The translations under genes and the position numbers were made by a program. 64,000 nucleotides of DNA, from the NCBI GenBank assembly GCA_947507875.1, contig CANNQP010000006.1:1-64000 (forward strand), read 5' to 3'. The notes beneath the pieces were generated by a model. The model did not search any database, was not told the origin of the DNA, and saw only the letters and a list, made by a program, of their open reading frames with translations. The stretch is from Verrucomicrobiaceae bacterium. GTDB lineage: Bacteria; Verrucomicrobiota; Verrucomicrobiia; Verrucomicrobiales; Verrucomicrobiaceae. Positions 24,891 through 35,304 of the stretch are shown in pieces; position 1 is the first letter of the stretch, and every line of letters begins with the position of its first letter.

Positions 24891-25514
24891 TTAGCGCAGA
24901 GACCAAGCCCCTTGGCGGGCAGCACGGGCGCTGGCTTCTAGCTCGCGCAGGTACTGCTGGTAATCGCGCGTGCTGCGGCCATCGGGCAGCGTGGTGCCGG
25001 TGGTGTGAATGCGGGCCAGACCCGCCCGCACTAGCTTGGCCGACAAATCCTCGCCATCCGCAAAGAGGATGAAGGCATAGTAGCGCCCGCTGTCATAGAC
25101 CTCATGCCATTTCGTGTAAACGGTGAAGGGCTGCGTGGTCAGCAGTTGGCGGGTGTAGTGTTCCGCCTGTCGGCCCACATTCACGGTTTGCGCCTCATTC
25201 AGTCCACCAAAGTAGCGACCCTGATCAGCCAGCCGGTCACCGTTTTTCGCGTGGCGCTTTTTCTCTGGGCAGTCGGCAAAGTAGAGGCGGAACTGCTGCG
25301 CCTGACCTTCCTTCAACAAGAGATGAAAGCTGTCCCCATCGTTGTCACGATGCGGATGCAGGCGCGCATTCAGCAACACCTGAAAGGTGCGCATGGATGA
25401 CCTTTCCGGGGCACGAGGGGGCTCGACGACTTGGCTCCAGCCTAACCAGCCGAGTGCGGCCATGATGAGCCAACGCCAGACTCGTATGTTTCGGATCCTG
25501 CGTCGCCTGCTCAT
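24891..25514 (-). CDS. Membrane-anchored SNase-like nuclease
   Basis: A 207-residue protein with a basic N terminus and one hydrophobic helix (about 11-28, VWRWLIMAALGWLGW), then a staphylococcal-nuclease (OB-fold) domain: DNDGDSFHLLLKEGQ, FRLYFADCPEKKR, the basic HYTRQLLTTQPFTVYTKWHE, DSGRYYAFILFADGEDLSAK and LVRAGLARI. These match the thermonuclease strands, though the usual second Arg site is not clearly preserved. It probably cleaves nucleic acid outside the inner membrane. Its ATG overlaps the OppD-like stop as ATGA (25511-25514), so translation should be coupled; a functional link to peptide uptake is unexplained. Confidence 0.8.
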   Translation of the reverse strand: MSRRRRIRNIRVWRWLIMAALGWLGWSQVVEPPRAPERSSMRTFQVLLNARLHPHRDNDGDSFHLLLKEGQAQQFRLYFADCPEKKRHAKNGDRLADQGRYFGGLNEAQTVNVGRQAEHYTRQLLTTQPFTVYTKWHEVYDSGRYYAFILFADGEDLSAKLVRAGLARIHTTGTTLPDGRSTRDYQQYLRELEASARAARQGAWSLR

Positions 25515-26365
25515 GCCGTGGCTGCCGCCAGGGCGGCGTAGTCGATGGTGCGCAGTCTTTCCTGTCGCGCGCCCATGCGTGGCACGCAATCGAGCAGAGC
25601 TTGAGTGTAGGGATGCTGGGGCCGGGTCAGGATCTCCGCCGTCGGCCCGGTCTCCACGATTTGGCCACGGAACATGACCGCGACACGGTCAGCGACCTCG
25701 CGGATGATTCCCAGGTTGTGCGTGATGAGAATCAAGCTCATGCCCAGGTCACGGCGCAGGCTGGCCAGCAGCTCCATGATTTGCTTTTGGATCGTCACAT
25801 CCAGCGCTGTCGTCGGCTCATCGGCCACGAGCAGCTTCGGACGGCAGCACAGCGCCATGGCGATCATCACGCGCTGCTGCATGCCGCCACTGAGTTCATG
25901 CGGGTAGGCACGCAGGCGCTTTTCCGGCTCGGTGATGCCCACCTTGTCCAACCAGCGGAGGATTTCCGCATCGCGGTCCTTCACCTCGGGGCGATGCAGG
26001 GCCAGCGCCTCGCCGATCTGCGTACGCACGGTCAGTACGGGGTTCAGTGAGGTCGTGGGCTCTTGAAAAACATAGGCAATCTCCCGCCCACGCACCTGCC
26101 GCAGTTGCTTTTCCTTCATCTCCAGCACTCGATGTCCAGCGATGCTCAGCTCTGCCGCCGTGATGCAGGCCGGGGGCTCCGGCAAAAGCCGCGCCAGGGC
26201 CAGGGCGGTCGCACTTTTGCCACTGCCACTCTCCCCCACGATGGCGATGGACTCGCCCTGGGCCAAATCCAGGCTGACCCCACGCACAGCCGGGGTGGGG
26301 GGCGCGTCATGACGGCGAAAGTCGATCTTCAGATCGCGGATGCGCAGCAAGGGGGTGTCAGGCAT
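25511..26365 (-). CDS. Oligopeptide ABC transporter ATP-binding protein (OppD/DppD-like)
   Basis: A 284-residue ABC ATPase. Walker A G44-ESGSGK-S51, the Q-loop YVFQEPTTSLNPV, signature LSGGMQQRVMIAMAL, Walker B LLVADEPTTALD and H-loop LILITHNLG are all present. The C-terminal QHPYTQALLDCVPRM is the oligopeptide-transporter tail, but it stops soon after, without the Fe-S cysteine cluster found in many OppD proteins, so it is shorter than usual (about 325). It follows the binding-protein gene after 54 bases on the same strand. No OppF is seen, so the transporter may use this ATPase as a homodimer. Confidence 0.92.
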   Translation of the reverse strand: MPDTPLLRIRDLKIDFRRHDAPPTPAVRGVSLDLAQGESIAIVGESGSGKSATALALARLLPEPPACITAAELSIAGHRVLEMKEKQLRQVRGREIAYVFQEPTTSLNPVLTVRTQIGEALALHRPEVKDRDAEILRWLDKVGITEPEKRLRAYPHELSGGMQQRVMIAMALCCRPKLLVADEPTTALDVTIQKQIMELLASLRRDLGMSLILITHNLGIIREVADRVAVMFRGQIVETGPTAEILTRPQHPYTQALLDCVPRMGARQERLRTIDYAALAAATA

Positions 26366-26419
26366 GATGGCGGATGATGCGGTGGCAGGGAGAGGAAGAC
26401 AAGGTCGCAGTGCAGCTGC

Positions 26420-28507
26420 TCAATCCGGGGCCAACATGCGCAGCGGACGTGTCGGTCTTGGTGCATCGATCAGCGCAGGCAGCAGATCTCGCAGCGTGCA
26501 GCCACGGGGAAAAGTCAGGTCTGCGAGCGCGGGAAAGCGGCTCGTCAGCACATGCAGTCGCTCTTCATCGCTAAAGAGTGGCAGAGCTGGCTGCAGCTGG
26601 CGCAGGCGTGCCTCCACCGCCGCCACCCGCGCTGGCATCTGCTCTGGGTCGAACTCCGCCATCAGAGCCTCCAGCCGCAGGTCCAGCTGCGAATCAGCCA
26701 ACTGGCTCACGTTGGGCCCCAGGCCAGACCGCTGACTGCTGTGCCACCATGGCAGCACATCCCACCCGGGGACAAAACCCGCCGCCACCAGGGCGATGTC
26801 GAACCGCCCGGCCTGCAATTCCATCAAATAACTGCCCGCAGGCACCTCCGTGACCTCCACCTCGACGCCCAGCGACTTCCAGCTAGTGACCAGCGCCTCC
26901 GCCAGCCGCTGGCGCTCCGCATTCTCCGCTGGGATCACCAGCCGCAGTCGCATCGCCTGAGCCAGCTGACGCAGCCGCCCCTCCACATCCTGCCCCCAGC
27001 CGGCCGACTTCAGCAGCTCTAGCACCTGAGAGCGCCGCACCGCAGGCACCAGCCCAGCTCCCGGCGCTGGCTGCAGTGGGGAAAACCAGCACCCAGGGGG
27101 GAAAAAACCATCCTGCACCCGCAGGGCCATGCCGGGCAGGCGGCTCAGCAGTTCCTCACGATCCAAGGCGAGACTCAGCGCCTGACGCACGCGGGGATCT
27201 TTCAGCGACGCGGCCTCCGTGTGCCACACCAGCATCAGCTGGTGACGTGCAGGCAGGCGCAACGGCACGTAACGGCTCGTCAGCGGACGCGGCACGGGCC
27301 AGGACACATCATCCCCCTGCGCCGTATCTACCTGAGTGCTGAGGACCACGATCTGGCGAATCGGCACCGCCAGGCCCTGACCCGACCGCTTTTCCAACAT
27401 CAACTGATCCGCGTCTCGTCGCGCCACTTGCCAGGCCCCAGCCCCTGGCGGCTCCGACTCTGCAAAATCAGAAACATGCTGCGCCAGCCACGCCGCCGGC
27501 AGGATGGGCAAAAGCGTCCACCCCGGCAGGGCGGGGCTATGGGCCCGGCGATAGATCACCCGCACCAGCCCAGGCTCAGGAGAGGTCACCTCCTGAATGT
27601 GCTGAAAGGCCTCCTTTCCCACCACCGGCCAGGGACGTGCCAGCATCTGCGTCAGCGTGGCCCGCACATCCTCCACCGTGATGGCACTGCCATCTGGCCA
27701 CGTCACCCCAGCACGCAAGCGAAAGTCCAGCACCGGCTCGACCAGGGCAGAGGCTTCATCGATCAACTGGATCTCCAGCATCGGATGATGACGTGGGGCG
27801 AGCCACTGCGTTAGCTGCTGCTGCGCCTGCACCGCCGGTCGCGTGCACACCATCTCGCACGTGCCATCCTCCGCGAACCACAGACGCTTCGTGGTGGCAG
27901 CATGCTCAGGATCGCGGGCAAAGGACTCCAGCACCAACCGTGCGCTCGGCGGTGCCAGGATGCGTAAACGAGAAAGCCGCAGCGGTCCGCTCGCCGCCAG
28001 CACCCGACCCACATCCGCCGCCACCATGCCGCCCGGCTGGGTAAAGCGCAGGTGCAGCGCCTCCGCCTCCGTAGCAACCGCCTCCAGATCCCAACGGCTG
28101 CGACGCTCCGCCGGCAGGTCCTGCAGCTCATGCGCTGCCGCACGCGCTGCCTCGGGGCTGGCAAACCAGCACGTCATCTCCTGGCGCCACATCCACTCCT
28201 CCGCCAGGGCCGGGGCCAGCCTGCCCTCGCGATCGTAGCGCACCAGCGGCTCATGCAGCAAATCCAGTACCTGACGACCGGCCACCTCCTCCGTCACGTA
28301 GGGATTCAGCAGCGGCAGTGCCCCTGGCAGCCGCACCACCAGTCGATCCGACATCGCCCGCCCAGGGCGCACCGGCGCGGGGGCATCCGCCGCCGGCTTC
28401 GGCCCTGGAGCCACCGACTCCTTTCGACAAGCACTACCCCCCAGCAGCAGCACCCCTCCCAGCCAAGCAGGCAGGGTCCAGCAGCGTGAGGTCAGGTTCA
28501 GCGTCAT
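26420..28507 (-). CDS. Family 5 extracellular solute-binding lipoprotein
   Basis: A 695-residue substrate-binding protein for an Opp/Dpp-type peptide importer. The signal ends at a lipobox LLGGSAC with Cys27 as the lipidation site. Family 5 features: LLNPYVTEEVAGRQVLDLLH, AEEWMW, FRLRAGVTWPDGSAITVEDV (the hallmark), PRVRQALSLALDREELL and RLRLVIPAEN. It is longer than typical (about 530-560) owing to an inserted segment between about 110 and 240. The start at 28507 is preferred over 28534. A 900-base stretch without genes separates it from the copper block. Confidence 0.92.
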   Translation of the reverse strand: MTLNLTSRCWTLPAWLGGVLLLGGSACRKESVAPGPKPAADAPAPVRPGRAMSDRLVVRLPGALPLLNPYVTEEVAGRQVLDLLHEPLVRYDREGRLAPALAEEWMWRQEMTCWFASPEAARAAAHELQDLPAERRSRWDLEAVATEAEALHLRFTQPGGMVAADVGRVLAASGPLRLSRLRILAPPSARLVLESFARDPEHAATTKRLWFAEDGTCEMVCTRPAVQAQQQLTQWLAPRHHPMLEIQLIDEASALVEPVLDFRLRAGVTWPDGSAITVEDVRATLTQMLARPWPVVGKEAFQHIQEVTSPEPGLVRVIYRRAHSPALPGWTLLPILPAAWLAQHVSDFAESEPPGAGAWQVARRDADQLMLEKRSGQGLAVPIRQIVVLSTQVDTAQGDDVSWPVPRPLTSRYVPLRLPARHQLMLVWHTEAASLKDPRVRQALSLALDREELLSRLPGMALRVQDGFFPPGCWFSPLQPAPGAGLVPAVRRSQVLELLKSAGWGQDVEGRLRQLAQAMRLRLVIPAENAERQRLAEALVTSWKSLGVEVEVTEVPAGSYLMELQAGRFDIALVAAGFVPGWDVLPWWHSSQRSGLGPNVSQLADSQLDLRLEALMAEFDPEQMPARVAAVEARLRQLQPALPLFSDEERLHVLTSRFPALADLTFPRGCTLRDLLPALIDAPRPTRPLRMLAPD

Positions 28508-28579
28508 CAATCCTCCCAGCTTACGCACCGCCACCGCCGTCCTTCAACCTTCCTGCCAGCTTGGATGCAAAAGAAGCCA

Positions 28580-28690
28580 GCATCTCCGCCCCCTCCCAGC
28601 GCCAACGGCGCGTCCCATCTCAGCCCAGGGCAACGCCCTGGGGAACCTGGGCCACCCTCTACCCGCCAGAGCCCTGAAGGGGCGTCCCAT
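28580..28690. repeat. REP-like palindromic element
   Basis: Contains AGCGCCAACGGCGCGTCCCA, a perfect palindrome CCCAGGGC/GCCCTGGG (28624-28642, loop AAC) and AGCCCTGAAGGGGCGTCCCA. This string of short palindromes ending in GTCCCAT is a layout I associate with highly repeated intergenic elements of Verrucomicrobiota and Planctomycetota. It lies just upstream of the binding-protein gene. Confidence 0.6.
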
Positions 28691-29245
28691 GCGCGTTCAG
28701 ATTCGGGGCATCCCTCCTGATCTCCGCTTCTCCAGAGCTTGCCAACCCTGATTTTGCTGTCGTCGAAGACCATTCGCTTCTGCACGAAAACTGTTTCCCT
28801 CCCACCGGGAATCCGCTCCTCGTGTCAGGGAGGGCTTCCCTTCAAGGCTTGAACGACTCTTTTCTCAAAGAAGGGAGCCCGTTTCCGCCCGAAAGCGGCG
28901 GTCATTTTCCAGAAGAATCTTTCCCACCCTGAGAAAAGCCATCGCTGCCTGACCCACCCTACCCGCCTGCACCCACAGCACATCTGGCTGCTTTGGTCTG
29001 GATCGGACGGACCTGCGATGCCGCGATCACCCTCCCACACACTCATCCCGGTCGGGCTGAGCCCTTGGCAGTGTGCTGGCCATCTCGGTGATGGGCATTT
29101 CTGCATGGATCAAGCGGCAGCCCAGCGGGAGCGCAGGGCCGTAGAGCGAGCTTCCAAGTTCGTTCCACGGTGCTCAGAGTCGTGCTTCCGAAAAGCGCGA
29201 AACGCACCTGCTAAGGTCTTGATGCAACGAGGGCTGGCAGCTCTG
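28691..29245. other. Gene-poor stretch beside the copper block
   Basis: No convincing gene. An open frame on the minus strand (28825-29106) is Arg/Trp-rich with no domain pattern and was not accepted. A 13-base stretch GCTTCCAAGTTCG at 29150-29162 resembles half of the palindromes at 42421-42485. The region probably consists of repeat debris. Confidence 0.5.
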
Positions 29246-29363
29246 CTATCGGCCTTCAGTCAGCCTATTCTGCATCCACTTCCCCGCCGCCTTGCCGCCG
29301 GTCTCCACGGGCAGCGACTGGCCCTGCAAACAGACGTATTCTTTCCAGGAGCCTTCGTGGAGG
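29246..29363 (-). pseudogene. Rhodanese-tail remnant, left copy
   Basis: On the minus strand, in one frame, this reads CLHEGSWKEYVCLQGQSLPV then ETGGKAAGKW and a TAG stop at 29246-29248. LY/H-EGSWKEY is reminiscent of the C-terminal strand of sulfurtransferases (LYDGSWxEW). No start or upstream domain exists. Its core (29281-29363) is a direct repeat of 33215-33298. Confidence 0.5.
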
Positions 29364-29405
29364 CAGGCGTGGTTTCCGTGCGCGGTGCGAAGGGGCTGAC
29401 ATCCA

Positions 29406-30140
29406 TCATCCATGCGGCAAAAGCAGGCCGAGGAGAGCCATGGCGAGCATCAAGCCGTCCTCGATGATGGTGACGGTGGACATGGGGAGGTTGAAGACGG
29501 TGCCGAGGCAGGCGCAGCGGATGGTCTGCCTGGAGGTGACGGCTTTGATGACGCCAAGAAGGCTGATGCCCATGATGAAGGCGGTGGCGAGATTCACGCC
29601 AAAGGGCTGCCACGCGGCGAGGTAGGCATGTCCGAGGGTCAGCTCGATGAAGGGATAAACGTAGCCGTAGCTGGGCCATGCCTTCGCCACGAGATCATAG
29701 CTGCGGTAGGCATCGGCAAAGCCGCGCAGGTCGAGCATTTTGAAAAAGGAGAAGGCGACGAAGAAGCCGCCCATGAAGAGGCGCATGGCCTCCATGAGCT
29801 GAAAATGACCGCTGGCGATGCTGGCGGCGAAGATGACGAGCAGCAGGTAGGCGAGCAGGATGAGCAGGGGCTTGTAGGTCTGCGCGGATTTCGGTGGCAA
29901 GGCGGAAGCGGGCATGGCGGGAGCCGCTTCCTCGGCCACGCGGTATTTGCCGAGCGGCTGGAGCCATTCATTGACCTCGGCACGGCTCAAGGCGGCGCGG
30001 GTCACGATGCGTGCCTGCGCCGGCGTGAGGGTGACGGTGACCTCCGTGATGTCCGGGTGCTCCTGAAGGCGGGCGGTGATCCTGGCGACGCACGAGCCGC
30101 AGCTCATGCCGCAGAGCGGAAAGGTTTGGGGGAGGTTCAT
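29406..30140 (-). CDS. HMA domain fused to MauE-like membrane domain
   Basis: A 244-residue protein. Residues 1-68 are a heavy-metal-associated domain with the metal-binding GMSCGSC (C14, C17) and the typical TARLQEHPDITEVTVTLTPA. After a linker come four or five hydrophobic helices of the MauE/DoxX redox type, with CACLGTVFNLPM near residue 213. The first domain should bind Cu(I) or a similar soft metal; the membrane part could pass thiols or electrons. The start at 30140 was chosen because the HMA motif is near the N terminus; the frame is open upstream without family character. It ends the copper operon. Confidence 0.87.
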   Translation of the reverse strand: MNLPQTFPLCGMSCGSCVARITARLQEHPDITEVTVTLTPAQARIVTRAALSRAEVNEWLQPLGKYRVAEEAAPAMPASALPPKSAQTYKPLLILLAYLLLVIFAASIASGHFQLMEAMRLFMGGFFVAFSFFKMLDLRGFADAYRSYDLVAKAWPSYGYVYPFIELTLGHAYLAAWQPFGVNLATAFIMGISLLGVIKAVTSRQTIRCACLGTVFNLPMSTVTIIEDGLMLAMALLGLLLPHG

Positions 30141-30209
30141 GGTGGGAAATGAGCTGCGCCACCTGGCGGCAATCTGGCGGCCGGGTGGCATGGTGGGGTG
30201 CTGCAGAGC

Positions 30210-30434
30210 CTACTTGAGCTTGGCGAGGTATTTGGCCGGGTTAGCGTCGAACTTCTTCACGCAGGGTTTGCAGCAGAATTTGATCTCCTGGCCTTCGTGC
30301 GATTTGACGATGACCTTGCCCATGCTGCCGAGCTTGTTGCCGCTGACGATGCAGGTCGGCAGGGGATAAGGTTTGTCGGCGGCGAGGCCGGTGCTGGCGA
30401 GGGCGATGAGGAGGGTGGTGAGGAGCGTTTTCAT
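30210..30434 (-). CDS. Small exported YHS-like metal-binding protein
   Basis: A 74-residue protein with a Sec signal (MKTLLTTLLIALASTGLAA) and a short mature part rich in Cys: PTCIVSGNKLG and IKFCCKPCVKKFDANPAKYL. The spacing of the Cys and the FxxNPxxY segment matches YHS/TRASH-like metal-binding modules. It is likely a periplasmic copper or heavy-metal carrier. It lies between the multicopper oxidase fusion (42 bases) and the HMA-MauE gene (70 bases) on the same strand. Confidence 0.86.
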   Translation of the reverse strand: MKTLLTTLLIALASTGLAADKPYPLPTCIVSGNKLGSMGKVIVKSHEGQEIKFCCKPCVKKFDANPAKYLAKLK

Positions 30435-30476
30435 GGGGTGTGTTTGCTTGGGGGTTTTTGTGATGACGGACGGTCA

Positions 30477-32624
30477 TCAAAAGCGGATGAGCACGCCGAC
30501 GCCGGGGCCGTAGTCGGAGTGGTAGGAGGCGGTCAATGAAGTGTGCCGGGTGAGGGTGTAGTCGGCTCCGGCGCTCCATTCCCAGCGGGTGCCGGTGTCG
30601 TAAAAGACATCTCCCCAAGCGCCGAGACGCGGGGTGAGCTGAAATCGCTTGGCGAGGCTGAAGCGGGCATCGCCTTCGGTATCGAGGCTAACGTTGAGCC
30701 AGGCCATGAGCGGGAGGCGGTAGTTGATGCCGATGAGGCCGCGATCTTTGGCGTCCTCATCATTGGTGAGGCGATAGCCAGCGAAGGCTTGGAAGTTCAG
30801 GTTGAAGTAGCGCTGGTAGAGGAGGTCGAGCTCGTATTGCGGCTCGTCCACGCGCTCCCAGCCGACCTCCCAGGCGAGCTGGATGTCGTTCTTCGGGTTC
30901 ATCCAGGTGAGCAGGCCCTCGCTCATGTTCGTCTGGAGACTGGCGGCTCCCCAGACGTAGCTCATGTCGTGGGCGTGCTCGCCGAGGCCATGTGGATCGA
31001 GTTTTCCAACTCGATCATCTGCGACGTGCGCGGTGGGTGATTTCGGCATCTCTTGCAGGACAGAATCCATGCGGGCAGGAGTGCCCGCATCACTCCTTTC
31101 CTCATAGCGGAAGACGCGGGCCATGCCGCTCATCATGTGATAAAGGATGTGGCAGTGGAACATCCAGTCGTGCGCCTCGTTCGCCTCGAACTCGACGGTG
31201 CGGCTGCTCATGGGCGGGACATCGACAGTGTGCTTCAGTGGTGAGCGGGCACCCTTTCCCATGAGCAGGCGGAAGAAGTGGCCATGCAGATGAATGGGGT
31301 GGTGCATCATGGTGTCGTTCACCAGTTCCAGCTCGATGATCTCGCCCTTTTTGATGATGACATAGGGCTGCTCGGCGATGGTTTTGCCGTCAAAGCTCCA
31401 GATGTAGCGATTCATGTCACCAGTGAGGTGGAGGGTGATTTTCCGACGCGGGAGGTTCTTGGGCAAAGAGGTGTCTTTGATGGCTTTGAGCAGGCGATAG
31501 GGCGATCCCGGGCGTGGGAGGTTCAAAGAGGCACGCGGATCATCTTCCTGCTCTTCGAGGGCGAGATTGAGCATCTCATCCATTTGGTAAAGATTTGGCC
31601 GTGGCGGCACGGGGGCGGCATGAGGCTCGCCTTTGCCAAAAAGGGCGCTACTGTGGCCGCTGCCGTCCTGCGTGGTGAAGCGCAGCTCATGCTGGCCGCT
31701 TTTGGGAATGGTCATGAGCAGGTCGTAGGTCTCGGCGATGCCCATGAGGAACATCGGCACACTCACCGGCTGCACCGGCGGACCGTCGGCTGCGATGATG
31801 GTGAGCGGCCCGGCGGAGGAGCTGAGGTAGTAGTAGCTGGCGGCGGAGGCATTGATGATGCGCAGGCGCACGCGTTCACCGGGAAGGCCTTCGATGCGTG
31901 TCTGGCGCTGTCCATTGATGAGGAAGGCATGGTAGCCCACATCAGACACATCCATCGGCATCATGCGGTCCCACTCGCGGCGGAAGTAGTCCTTTAAGTT
32001 GCCGCGTTTCCACGCGCCGAGGATGGACTGCGAGTTCCGCCGCATGAGGCCGAAGTAGTCGCTGCCACGCATGAGCATGCGCATGACCTCCATGGGATCG
32101 GTGTCGGTCCAGTCGGAGAGGATGAGCACTTGTTCACGGTCGGCTTTGACTGGCTCGCCGCCGCTTGGCTCGACGACGATGCCGCCATAGACGCCGCTCT
32201 GCTCCTGCAAATGCGTGTGCGAATGAAACCAGTAGGTGCCGCTGTGTCGCAGCGTGAACTGAAAGGTATGCGTGCTGCCCGGCTTGATGGGCGGCGTGGT
32301 GACGTGCGGCACGCCGTCTTCTTTGTTCGGCAGGAGCAGGCCGTGCCAGTGCGTGGAGGTTTCCTCGTTCTTGAGGTCGTTGTGGACGCGGATGCGGGCA
32401 AAGTCGCCCTCACGGAAACGCAGCACCGGGCCGGGGATGCTGCCATTGATGGCGAGCACGTGGACGGGCCTGCCAGCGGGGCTTTGCGTGTGCTCGGCGA
32501 TGTGCAGATCGTATTCGACGACGCGCTGGCCGGGAGCGGGCTTGTTCTTCCCGCATTCATCACAGGCAAGGACGGTCGCAGGTGCCATGAGCATGGCACA
32601 GCCGAGGAGAGGGAATGTTTTCAC
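30477..32624 (-). CDS. CopA-like multicopper oxidase fused to CopB-like outer-membrane barrel
   Basis: A 715-residue fusion. The N-terminal signal (MKTFPLLGCAMLMAPATVLA then C21) may also be a lipobox. Residues about 30-510 are a three-cupredoxin multicopper oxidase: H92-W-H-G95, H134-S-H-T-H138, H441-HPIHLHGH and the type 1/trinuclear set H490-C-H-ILYHMMSGM501. Residues about 545-715 resemble CopB, with alternating strands such as YELDLLYQRYFNLNFQAFAG, WLNVSLDTEGDARFSLAKRF, LGAWGDVFYDT and YTLTRHTSLTASYHSDYGP, ending in a C-terminal Phe as in outer-membrane proteins. CopB is normally separate and longer. It probably oxidises Cu(I) in the periplasm while anchored in the outer membrane. Confidence 0.9.
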   Translation of the reverse strand: MKTFPLLGCAMLMAPATVLACDECGKNKPAPGQRVVEYDLHIAEHTQSPAGRPVHVLAINGSIPGPVLRFREGDFARIRVHNDLKNEETSTHWHGLLLPNKEDGVPHVTTPPIKPGSTHTFQFTLRHSGTYWFHSHTHLQEQSGVYGGIVVEPSGGEPVKADREQVLILSDWTDTDPMEVMRMLMRGSDYFGLMRRNSQSILGAWKRGNLKDYFRREWDRMMPMDVSDVGYHAFLINGQRQTRIEGLPGERVRLRIINASAASYYYLSSSAGPLTIIAADGPPVQPVSVPMFLMGIAETYDLLMTIPKSGQHELRFTTQDGSGHSSALFGKGEPHAAPVPPRPNLYQMDEMLNLALEEQEDDPRASLNLPRPGSPYRLLKAIKDTSLPKNLPRRKITLHLTGDMNRYIWSFDGKTIAEQPYVIIKKGEIIELELVNDTMMHHPIHLHGHFFRLLMGKGARSPLKHTVDVPPMSSRTVEFEANEAHDWMFHCHILYHMMSGMARVFRYEERSDAGTPARMDSVLQEMPKSPTAHVADDRVGKLDPHGLGEHAHDMSYVWGAASLQTNMSEGLLTWMNPKNDIQLAWEVGWERVDEPQYELDLLYQRYFNLNFQAFAGYRLTNDEDAKDRGLIGINYRLPLMAWLNVSLDTEGDARFSLAKRFQLTPRLGAWGDVFYDTGTRWEWSAGADYTLTRHTSLTASYHSDYGPGVGVLIRF

Positions 32625-32663
32625 GAAGAGTCTAAATCAAAGCGTTGGTCACAAAGGAAACAC

Positions 32664-32709
32664 GCCCGCTGTGCATGACGATCCACGAAGGGGATCATGC
32701 CACGCGGGC
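32664..32709. promoter_or_regulatory. Imperfect hairpin between Cys-rich gene and copper oxidase
   Basis: Nested complementary arms GCCCGC (32664)...GCGGGC (32704), GCAT...ATGC and GATCC...GGATC close on a 6-base loop, with a 3/3 internal loop and a 3-base bulge. It stands in the 111-base gap before the multicopper oxidase start on the minus strand. It could attenuate read-through or bind a regulator; no T-run follows it. Confidence 0.45.
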
Positions 32710-32735
32710 ACAATGCGTCTGTGTCAGGCCCGCAT

Positions 32736-33107
32736 TCAGTTCAAGAAGGAGCAAAACAGCACCATCAGCCGGACATGCGGCGGGGTGCGTGTCGGCTCAT
32801 TGAAAACGGGCCGGTTTGCGCGGCTCGTCTCTTTTGAAGAAAGGATTAGCAAAGGAGGCAGCTCCTTCCAAACCACCAACGGGATGTGGTCGCGGTTCGA
32901 AGAAGGTGGCGGCAAATGAGCTGGAGTGCTGTTTTGCCCTTCTGAAGGACCTGCCGAGCAAGCGCAGTCTCCCGGGCCCTCCTCAGCCAGCCACGCGCAG
33001 CAGTCCATGGTGCATTTTGCCTTCACGGGAGCCTGCAAGGCCGTCAGCGGCGCTGTCTGCATCAGCAGCAGGAGCAGCATCAGGCAAATCTGGAGGGCGC
33101 GTTTCAT
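32736..33107 (-). CDS. Cys-rich exported protein at head of copper block
   Basis: A 123-residue protein with a strong Sec signal (MKRALQICLMLLLLLMQTAP, cleaved near LQA). The mature N-terminal part is Cys-rich: KCTMDCCAWLAEEGPGDCAC, a CxxxCC...CxC array that could bind Cu(I). The rest is Pro-rich and has no known domain. It is the first gene on the minus strand before the multicopper oxidase fusion, with 111 bases between. I know similar Met/Cys-rich secreted proteins near copper genes in related genomes, but I cannot assign a family. Confidence 0.65.
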   Translation of the reverse strand: MKRALQICLMLLLLLMQTAPLTALQAPVKAKCTMDCCAWLAEEGPGDCACSAGPSEGQNSTPAHLPPPSSNRDHIPLVVWKELPPLLILSSKETSRANRPVFNEPTRTPPHVRLMVLFCSFLN

Positions 33108-33188
33108 CGACGGGTGAGGATGGACTCAGCCCGGTTTACATCAAGCCTTTTGGATTGTGCTTCTGTGTGTGACTATTGCCTCCTGTCC

Positions 33189-33329
33189 TCATGGCGCTGG
33201 GCACCGCTTTCTTTTCCCCGCCGCCTTGCCGCCGGTCTCGGCGGGGAGCGATTTGCCATCGAGCCAGACGTATTCTTTCCAGGAGCCTTCGTAGAGGTGG
33301 ACGGGCGTCGATGAGGCGGTCGACGTCAT
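33189..33329 (-). pseudogene. Rhodanese-tail remnant or small ORF, right copy
   Basis: A 46-codon frame with ATG at 33329, a Shine-Dalgarno-like GGGAGG 10 bases before it, and stop at 33189-33191. It reads SSTPVHLYEGSWKEYVWLDG then SLPAETGGKAAGK. The HLYEGSWKEY part resembles the C-terminal strand of sulfurtransferases. It could be a real small gene, but the shared tail with 29246-29363 makes a duplicated gene remnant more likely. Confidence 0.5.
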
Positions 33330-33400
33330 GAAAAGACCTCCCTGTCTTGGGCTGCTGCCAGTTTGATTTCACGAAGCTGCCGAAGTGAAGACGGGTCGGA

Positions 33401-34261
33401 TCAAAGCACCGACTTCGGATCGAGCGCATCGCGCAAGCCATCGCCGAGCAAATTCAGCGCGAGCAAGGTGAGGGTGAAGAAGGCGCTGGGTCCGATGAGC
33501 ATCCAGGGATAGACAGCCATGCTGGCGGCGCCCTCGCTGATGAGCACGCCCCAGCTGGCATCCGGCGGCTGGATGCCGAGCCCGAGGAAGCTGAGCGTGG
33601 CCTCCAGCAGCATGACGCCGGGCACAGTCAGGCTGGCGTAGATGATCACGGGCCCCATGACATTGGGCAGCATGTGGCGAAACAGGATGCGGCCAAAGCC
33701 AGCCCCAGCGGCACGCGCCGCCTGCACATACTCCAGCTTTTTCAGCGTGAGCACCTGCCCGCGCACGACACGCGCCATGGTCAGCCATTCCACCGCGCCG
33801 ATGGCGACAAAGATGAGCACAAACTGCCTGCCGAAGATGACAACAAGCAGGATGACAAAGGTGATGAAGGGAAAGGCGTAGAGGACATCCACAGCGCGCA
33901 TCATCAGGGCATCCACGCGGCGGCCTGACAGACCTGCCACGAGGCCATAACCCACACCGATGACGACCGCGACAGCGGTGGCCATGACTCCGACGAGCAA
34001 GGAGATGCGGCCGCCATGCAGGATGCGCGTGGCTAGATCGCGGCCGAGTGGATCGGTGCCGAGCCAGTGGGCGGCATTCGGCGGCACGGCGCGCAGTTCG
34101 AGGTCTTGATCGTTCGGGCCGTAGGGGGAAAACCACGGTCCCGCCACGCAGAGGAGCATCATGAAGCCGAGCAGCAGCAGGGCCGCCACGGAGACGCGAG
34201 AGCGGCAGAGTCGCCGCCAGGCGAGTTGAGTGGGAGTGAGATGTTCCGATGCCGCGCTCAT
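33401..34261 (-). CDS. Oligopeptide ABC transporter permease (OppC/DppC-like)
   Basis: A 286-residue inner-membrane permease. It has an N-terminal cytoplasmic helix, one transmembrane segment (about 26-46), a periplasmic loop with LGTDPLGRDLATRILHGGRI (the OppC signature), and five further helices. The ATPase-contact EAA loop is VQAARAAGAGFGRILFRHML followed by NVMGPVIIYASLTVPGVML. The C terminus GDGLRDALDPK is also typical. Its start overlaps the OppB stop as ATGA (34258-34261), so the two are translationally coupled. The copper block lies immediately downstream. Confidence 0.95.
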   Translation of the reverse strand: MSAASEHLTPTQLAWRRLCRSRVSVAALLLLGFMMLLCVAGPWFSPYGPNDQDLELRAVPPNAAHWLGTDPLGRDLATRILHGGRISLLVGVMATAVAVVIGVGYGLVAGLSGRRVDALMMRAVDVLYAFPFITFVILLVVIFGRQFVLIFVAIGAVEWLTMARVVRGQVLTLKKLEYVQAARAAGAGFGRILFRHMLPNVMGPVIIYASLTVPGVMLLEATLSFLGLGIQPPDASWGVLISEGAASMAVYPWMLIGPSAFFTLTLLALNLLGDGLRDALDPKSVL

Positions 34262-35184
34262 GCGTCCTCTTTGAATCCGATCCTGGGGTTCAGCAGGGCC
34301 TGGATGATGTCCACCAGCAGATTGAAGGCGACGATGAGCAGCGCGTAAAAGGCTGCGGTGGCCATGGCGAGCTCGTAGTTCCGGTTCACAGCGGCACCGA
34401 CGAAATGCTGACCCAGGCCAGGGAGCTGAAACACACTCTCGGTGACGATGGAACCGGTCATGAGCCCAGCGGCCGCGGGCCCCAGGAAATTCAGCACGGG
34501 CAGGCAGGCGAGCTTGAAGGCATGGCGAAAGACCACCGCCATCTCGGAGGCGCCTTTGGCTCGCGCGGTGCGGATGAACTCCAAGGCCAGGGTTTCACGC
34601 AGACCACCCCGAGTCAGGCGGGCGATGTAGGCGCTGTAAATGAGGCCGAGGGTCAGGGCAGGCAGCACCCAGTCGTCCGCATCATACCAGCCGGAAGCAT
34701 TGAACCAGCGCAGCTTTAGGCCGAAAACGAGGGTGATCACGGGCCCCAGCACGAGACTTGGCGTGCAGATGCCCAGCGTGGCGGCCACCGTGCTCACGCG
34801 ATCCTCCAGACTGCCCGGACGCAGAGCTGCCAGTGCCCCGGCGGGAATACCGACTGCCAACGCGATGAGCAAAGCCGCCAAACCCACCTGAGCAGACACG
34901 GGAAATCCCTCGGCGATGATTTCCCCGACGCTGCGGCCCGGCATCTTCGGCGAGGGTGGGAACCGAAAGGTGGCGAAATTCACGATGTGATTCCACAGCT
35001 GAATGGGCAGAGGTCGGTCCAGGCCATACATGGACTCCTGCTGGCGGCGGATGTGCTCGGGCACATCTCGCTCTCCCTGAAAGGGTCCGCCCGGAGCCAT
35101 CCTGAGGAGCAGAAACGTGATGCAGAGCACGCCGACGATGACGACGACGCCCTGAACGACACGACTGATGAGAAAACGAAGCAT
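34258..35184 (-). CDS. Oligopeptide ABC transporter permease (OppB/DppB-like)
   Basis: A 308-residue permease with six transmembrane helices. The N terminus MLRFLISRVVQGVVVIVGVL and the following FLLLRMAPGGPFQGERDVPE are diagnostic for OppB. The EAA loop is FIRTARAKGASEMAVVFRHA, with AGLMTGSIVTESVFQLPGLG after it. The start at 35184 fits this N terminus; upstream codons are not conserved in character. It pairs with the coupled OppC gene. The substrate is probably a di- or oligopeptide, possibly from cell wall, judging by the neighbouring muramidase gene. Confidence 0.95.
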   Translation of the reverse strand: MLRFLISRVVQGVVVIVGVLCITFLLLRMAPGGPFQGERDVPEHIRRQQESMYGLDRPLPIQLWNHIVNFATFRFPPSPKMPGRSVGEIIAEGFPVSAQVGLAALLIALAVGIPAGALAALRPGSLEDRVSTVAATLGICTPSLVLGPVITLVFGLKLRWFNASGWYDADDWVLPALTLGLIYSAYIARLTRGGLRETLALEFIRTARAKGASEMAVVFRHAFKLACLPVLNFLGPAAAGLMTGSIVTESVFQLPGLGQHFVGAAVNRNYELAMATAAFYALLIVAFNLLVDIIQALLNPRIGFKEDA

Positions 35185-35304
35185 GGAAAAACCGGAAGCT
35201 GCATTGTGGGAGCGCCCCATGGCAAACGCAACGCCGTGATGAGCGATGGGACTGCAAAAGCGGATCCAGACAAGCCAAGACCCTACGCGCCGTCGCCAAT
35301 GGAC

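Follow-up and report, generated by a model that had tools for sequence, protein, structure and literature searches.

PcoA, which oxidises copper, has PcoB as its partner in the outer membrane. PcoB has 12 strands, conducts Cu(II) in liposomes and has been proposed to be an importer (PMC9210255), while the PcoB of Caulobacter is held to act in efflux (PMC12509749), so that the proposals for its direction, uptake and efflux, are opposite. The disordered, His/Met-rich N-terminus of PcoB stabilises PcoA and may dock it, and a periplasmic orientation is assigned to this tail in CopB/PcoB (PMC12509749). Both partners have also been reported in one chain: fused PcoA-PcoB was described in five Legionella species in 2012, with the presence of oxidase and PcoB in a single polypeptide stated explicitly (PMC3548706), and in 2024 an oxidase of Bizionia argentinensis was noted to have a C-terminal porin-like region resembling PcoB (PMC11213822). 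These reports precede the protein presented here, for which the original prediction knew of no described case. The Legionella proteins, which are gammaproteobacterial, are likened to it by description, not by sequence; the Bizionia protein (G2EDV6), from the Bacteroidota, shares with it a signal peptide, three Cu-oxidase domains and a porin-like C-terminus (611–809) with some PcoB similarity, but has received a one-sentence mention, without experiment (PMC11213822).

The window analysed here, a stretch of 64,000 nucleotides from a Verrucomicrobiaceae bacterium, encodes a fused multicopper oxidase/CopB-like outer-membrane barrel protein of 715 aa at 30477–32624 (stop included), read from a GTG start without internal stop; this and all other genes and protein features of the window given below lie on the minus strand, which the original prediction did not state. 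The nearest relatives are Prosthecobacter and other Verrucomicrobiaceae MAGs, and the genome appears to belong to the Verrucomicrobiales. As had been predicted, one intact frame carries all four copper-ligand blocks and then a C-terminal barrel ending in Phe, as judged from its domains and predicted fold. The three-domain oxidase core (residues 34–509, 31098–32525) scores well over the cut-off for each of Pfam Cu-oxidase_3, Cu-oxidase and Cu-oxidase_2, is modelled by AlphaFold2 with pLDDT mostly >90, and has laccases and ascorbate oxidase as its PDB matches. Its ligand blocks (HxHG, HxH, HxxHxH and HCHxxxHxxxxM) are invariant or nearly invariant in an alignment of 55 homologues: H92-W-H94-G95 (32340–32351, invariant), W132-F-H134-S-H136 (32217–32231), H442-P-I-H445-L-H447-G448 (31281–31301) and H490-C491-H492-I-L-Y-H496-M-M-S-G-M501 (31122–31157). 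With three cupredoxin domains and every ligand block, the window protein is a multicopper oxidase. By far its best NCBIfam model is TIGR01480 (copper_res_A), at 412.6 bits, which does not reach the curated cut-off of 478.95 bits. It thus resembles PcoA/CopA in domains, in the same four ligand blocks and in about 32–43% identity over the core, and differs from them in scoring under the TIGR01480 cut-off and in its export signal, PcoA/CopA being separate proteins with a Tat signal.

Residues 1–20 (32565–32624) form a Sec-type signal peptide without twin-arginine. Among the sequences retrieved, with signal types judged by eye, fused proteins with a readable start had Sec-type N-termini lacking a twin arginine, whereas the twin-arginine signals of the 15 separate CopA proteins were Tat-like, in most cases of the SRRxFVKG type; the Tat signal seen in every one of these separate proteins was not found in the window protein. 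Tat exports folded proteins, and a barrel must cross the inner membrane unfolded, which fits a Sec-type signal on the fused protein; export through Sec would in turn place copper loading in the periplasm. Because fused and separate proteins form two clades, the Sec/Tat pattern counts as a single correlated event rather than as many independent ones. The pattern is apparently unreported, no paper on it having been found in the open-access literature. Directly after the signal peptide lies a CxxC motif, C21-x-x-C24 (ACDECG, 32553–32564), common to close relatives, which could include a lipobox cysteine or be a metal site.

Core and barrel are joined by a linker (residues 510–555, 30960–31097), of which residues 512–543 are predicted to be disordered (pLDDT <50). 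Across the family such linkers are enriched in His and Met (together 15%, against 8% overall), and a conserved LGEHxHDM segment closes them just before strand 1. The C-terminal domain (residues 556–715, 30480–30959), ending in Phe, was expected by the original prediction to be an 8-stranded barrel; structure prediction gave instead 12 strands, as in solved PcoB, and the 8-strand form is rejected. In the full-length AlphaFold2 model (made with 55 homologues; pLDDT 88.3, pTM 0.87) residues 556–714 make up these 12 strands, with pLDDT mostly >90, and the domain predicted alone returned the same 12 strands at a mean pLDDT of 91.8. The predicted barrel is small, its strands are short, and nothing more than a short helix precedes strand 1. 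Family-averaged alternation of hydrophobicity between inside and outside positions over the strands was 34.9, compared with 15.0 ± 3.2 in 5000 shuffles, all of which it exceeded; F occupies position 715 in 91% of 69 fused relatives.

Several tests identify this barrel as a distant homologue of CopB. PF05275 gave no match to the window protein or to its barrel up to E 1, so the link rests on relatives, on profile–profile comparison, on a genome-wide profile search and on structure. Among 46 homologous barrels, CopB (PF05275) was the most frequent Pfam match (24/46, best E 6.6e-6), and the generic OMP_b-brl was matched by 19; hhalign against seven separate CopB proteins gave 82.9% (E 9e-6). The least biased test is the genome-wide search, in which the barrel profile was run against 14 whole genomes that each carry a separate copA, almost all of them from proteobacteria; here every other outer-membrane protein of each genome competes, and position beside copA was judged by coordinates. 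In 10 of the 11 genomes with any match at E≤1 the top match lay directly downstream of copA; individual E-values were modest (9e-5 to 0.05). Ten CopB/PcoB sequences also outscored 500 shuffled ones. Pairwise BLAST of the barrel against Halomonas CopB is weak taken alone (22.7 bits, E 0.006); in that genome, copA and copB share a reading frame, with a stop codon and a few bases between them, and a single tblastn alignment spans both.

Among the rows shown, Foldseek with the full-length model returned oxidases only, and for this reason prediction and search were repeated with the barrel by itself. PcoB (7PGE) then had the best TM-score among the top rows (0.58/0.56) and aligned with the barrel over 160 residues (VIA-align Z 14.9, rmsd 3.2). 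OmpLA scores as high (Z 15.3), so the fold by itself does not single out PcoB; searching PDB sequences with the barrel profile gave mainly designed barrels and was uninformative. Domain, profile and structural evidence nonetheless agree in placing a CopB/PcoB-like barrel behind an oxidase of the CopA/PcoA kind, as originally proposed. With PcoB/CopB (PF05275; 7PGE) the fused protein shares a 12-strand barrel after a disordered His/Met-rich tail, and distant sequence homology; it differs in that PcoB/CopB has a gene of its own and a longer barrel (205 residues, against about 160 in the fused protein). Both termini of PcoB/CopB are periplasmic, and the window barrel is likened to them in this by predicted fold only.

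The same structural list contains EstA (Z 11.9) and NalP (Z 11.1), and an N-terminal passenger, a linker and a 12-strand C-terminal barrel is also the layout of type Va autotransporters, in which case the barrel would bring the oxidase to the cell surface. We consider such display improbable: the fit to PcoB and OmpLA is closer (Z about 15), no autotransporter Pfam model matched the window protein or the barrels of 46 relatives, the barrel with its short strands is small and has merely a short helix ahead of strand 1, and the N-terminal tail of the CopB/PcoB to which it is related is held to be periplasmic (PMC12509749).

The fused protein is, on present evidence, probably a one-chain counterpart of PcoA-PcoB (CopA-CopB), with a Sec-exported, BAM-inserted barrel, a tethered periplasmic Cu(I) oxidase and possible conduction of Cu(II). 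Its export route, orientation, enzyme activity and copper conduction are what we infer from its homologues and predicted fold. The chain would be exported unfolded through Sec, and BAM would insert the C-terminal 12-strand barrel in the outer membrane with both of its ends toward the periplasm. The oxidase would then hang in the periplasm on a 30–40 residue His/Met-containing linker, standing in for the disordered His/Met-rich tail of PcoB, and would turn Cu(I) into Cu(II) with oxygen. The barrel would at the least serve the oxidase as an outer-membrane anchor, and its homology with PcoB makes it a possible conduit for Cu(II). Of the original proposal that the oxidase is tethered in the outer membrane, the predicted barrel fold and the CopB homology stand, and the localisation itself would follow from them. 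The reading that fits best on sequence and model is that of a Cu(I) oxidase tethered to the outer membrane, facing the periplasm and possibly equipped with a Cu(II) channel.

How far the barrel goes beyond anchoring is less clear-cut. The copper-binding pair of PcoB, D97 and E207, aligns by motif register, in an uncertain alignment, with Ser562 and Ala658 here; the site is apparently not conserved, and the barrel may conduct copper differently or not at all. This, together with a barrel shorter than that of PcoB, is what would be expected were the barrel a membrane anchor only, holding the oxidase at the outer membrane with no copper passing through it, a reading that is possible but against which we lean. 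Conservation is strong at polar and charged positions that face inward (E586, E598, D600, R618, R654, R666 and D676), and the net charge (median −6.5) is negative, as it is in CopB; both exceed the needs of an anchor. A stronger form of the one-chain PcoA-PcoB reading, in which the tethered oxidase passes newly made Cu(II) into its own barrel and so across the outer membrane, as an oxidise-and-release device, and in which the move from Tat to Sec in this lineage was a consequence of the fusion, seems to us rather doubtful.

The fusion is widespread. The full protein was matched in 124 of 289 genomes of the order, and the barrel domain is present in 101/289, nearly always fused to the oxidase; for this lineage, then, the barrel is a common fixed extension of ordinary CopA, an outcome that the original prediction had itself named as counting against its claim. 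About nine in ten barrel matches in the order fall in frames of roughly 670–930 aa, and the shorter frames are mostly at contig ends or beside a stop or frameshift; in one genome (G248) oxidase and barrel are separate genes. Canonical CopB (PF05275) was detected in only 3/68 genomes of the family. Full-length fused proteins also occur in Planctomycetota, Bdellovibrionota/Oligoflexia, Nitrospirota, Thermodesulfobacteriota and Myxococcota-labelled contigs, and on plasmids both of Bacteroidota (Hymenobacter, Spirosoma, Mucilaginibacter, Flavobacterium and Ornithobacterium) and of the fusobacterium Ilyobacter. A joining of two genes through faulty assembly or sequencing can in practice be dismissed: the frame has no stop, full-length fused homologues with 46–91% identity recur in dozens of independent genomes and in many phyla, and where a few relatives are split (for example Hymenobacter DG25B) the two-piece form is the exception. 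Conservation of the fusion therefore rules out chance as well as an artefact.

The oxidase-core tree has a branch with 100/100 support that splits all fused rows from the separate CopA proteins; the tree is unrooted and has long branches, so that fusion and fission cannot be told apart. One apparently separate row inside the fused clade (L084) was rejected, its protein being cut by a contig end. Many genomes of the order also carry a second, longer fused paralogue of about 760–930 aa with a barrel of its own (e.g. G041:C4, G100:C23 and G210:C386). The fused oxidase of the Bacteroidota (L114, 5875–8745, on a Fibrella plasmid) contains, between its second and third oxidase domains, a long Met/His-rich insert with no counterpart in the window protein.

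Because the fusion is the norm in many related bacteria and was already on record, the find is useful though for the most part ordinary; in the open-access literature, no paper was found on the fusion as a lineage-wide feature of Verrucomicrobiota. It bears on two questions about PcoB, whether it imports or exports copper and whether PcoA hands copper over to it physically. A lineage that has long kept both in one polypeptide suggests that PcoA and PcoB act as a unit, and gives a construct with a fixed 1:1 ratio. It points, too, to an outer-membrane location for many proteins whose sole annotation is ‘multicopper oxidase domain-containing protein’.

The fused gene lies in a copper gene cluster. 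Directly upstream is a gene for a 123-aa Cys-rich protein with a signal-like N-terminus (32736–33107), which has no Pfam match and whose place is often conserved; scanning upstream for a sigma-70 promoter gave no hit. Next downstream is a gene for a 74-aa secreted YHS/TRASH-like protein with a CCKPC motif (30210–30434; Pfam YHS E 9e-6, below cut-off). In most Verrucomicrobiota and Planctomycetota loci with the fused gene, a YHS-like sequence stands downstream of it, an association that supports a role in copper handling. The third gene of the cluster (29406–30191) encodes an HMA (heavy-metal-associated) domain fused to a MauE-type membrane domain, both over the Pfam cut-off, and about a dozen loci conserve such a gene close to the fused oxidase.

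The cluster sits within an oligopeptide ABC transporter gene set (25511–35220, all on the minus strand), with oppB-/oppC-like genes upstream and a solute-binding protein and ATPase downstream. It is flanked by an 84-bp direct repeat, 87% identical between its copies (29280–29363 and 33214–33297), which reads like ‘..YEGSWKEYVWLDGKSLPAETGGKAAG’ and whose 23-mer core occurs genome-wide at these two sites only. The two copies, which may mark the way in which the cluster came to be inserted, could both be left over from the end of a single gene.
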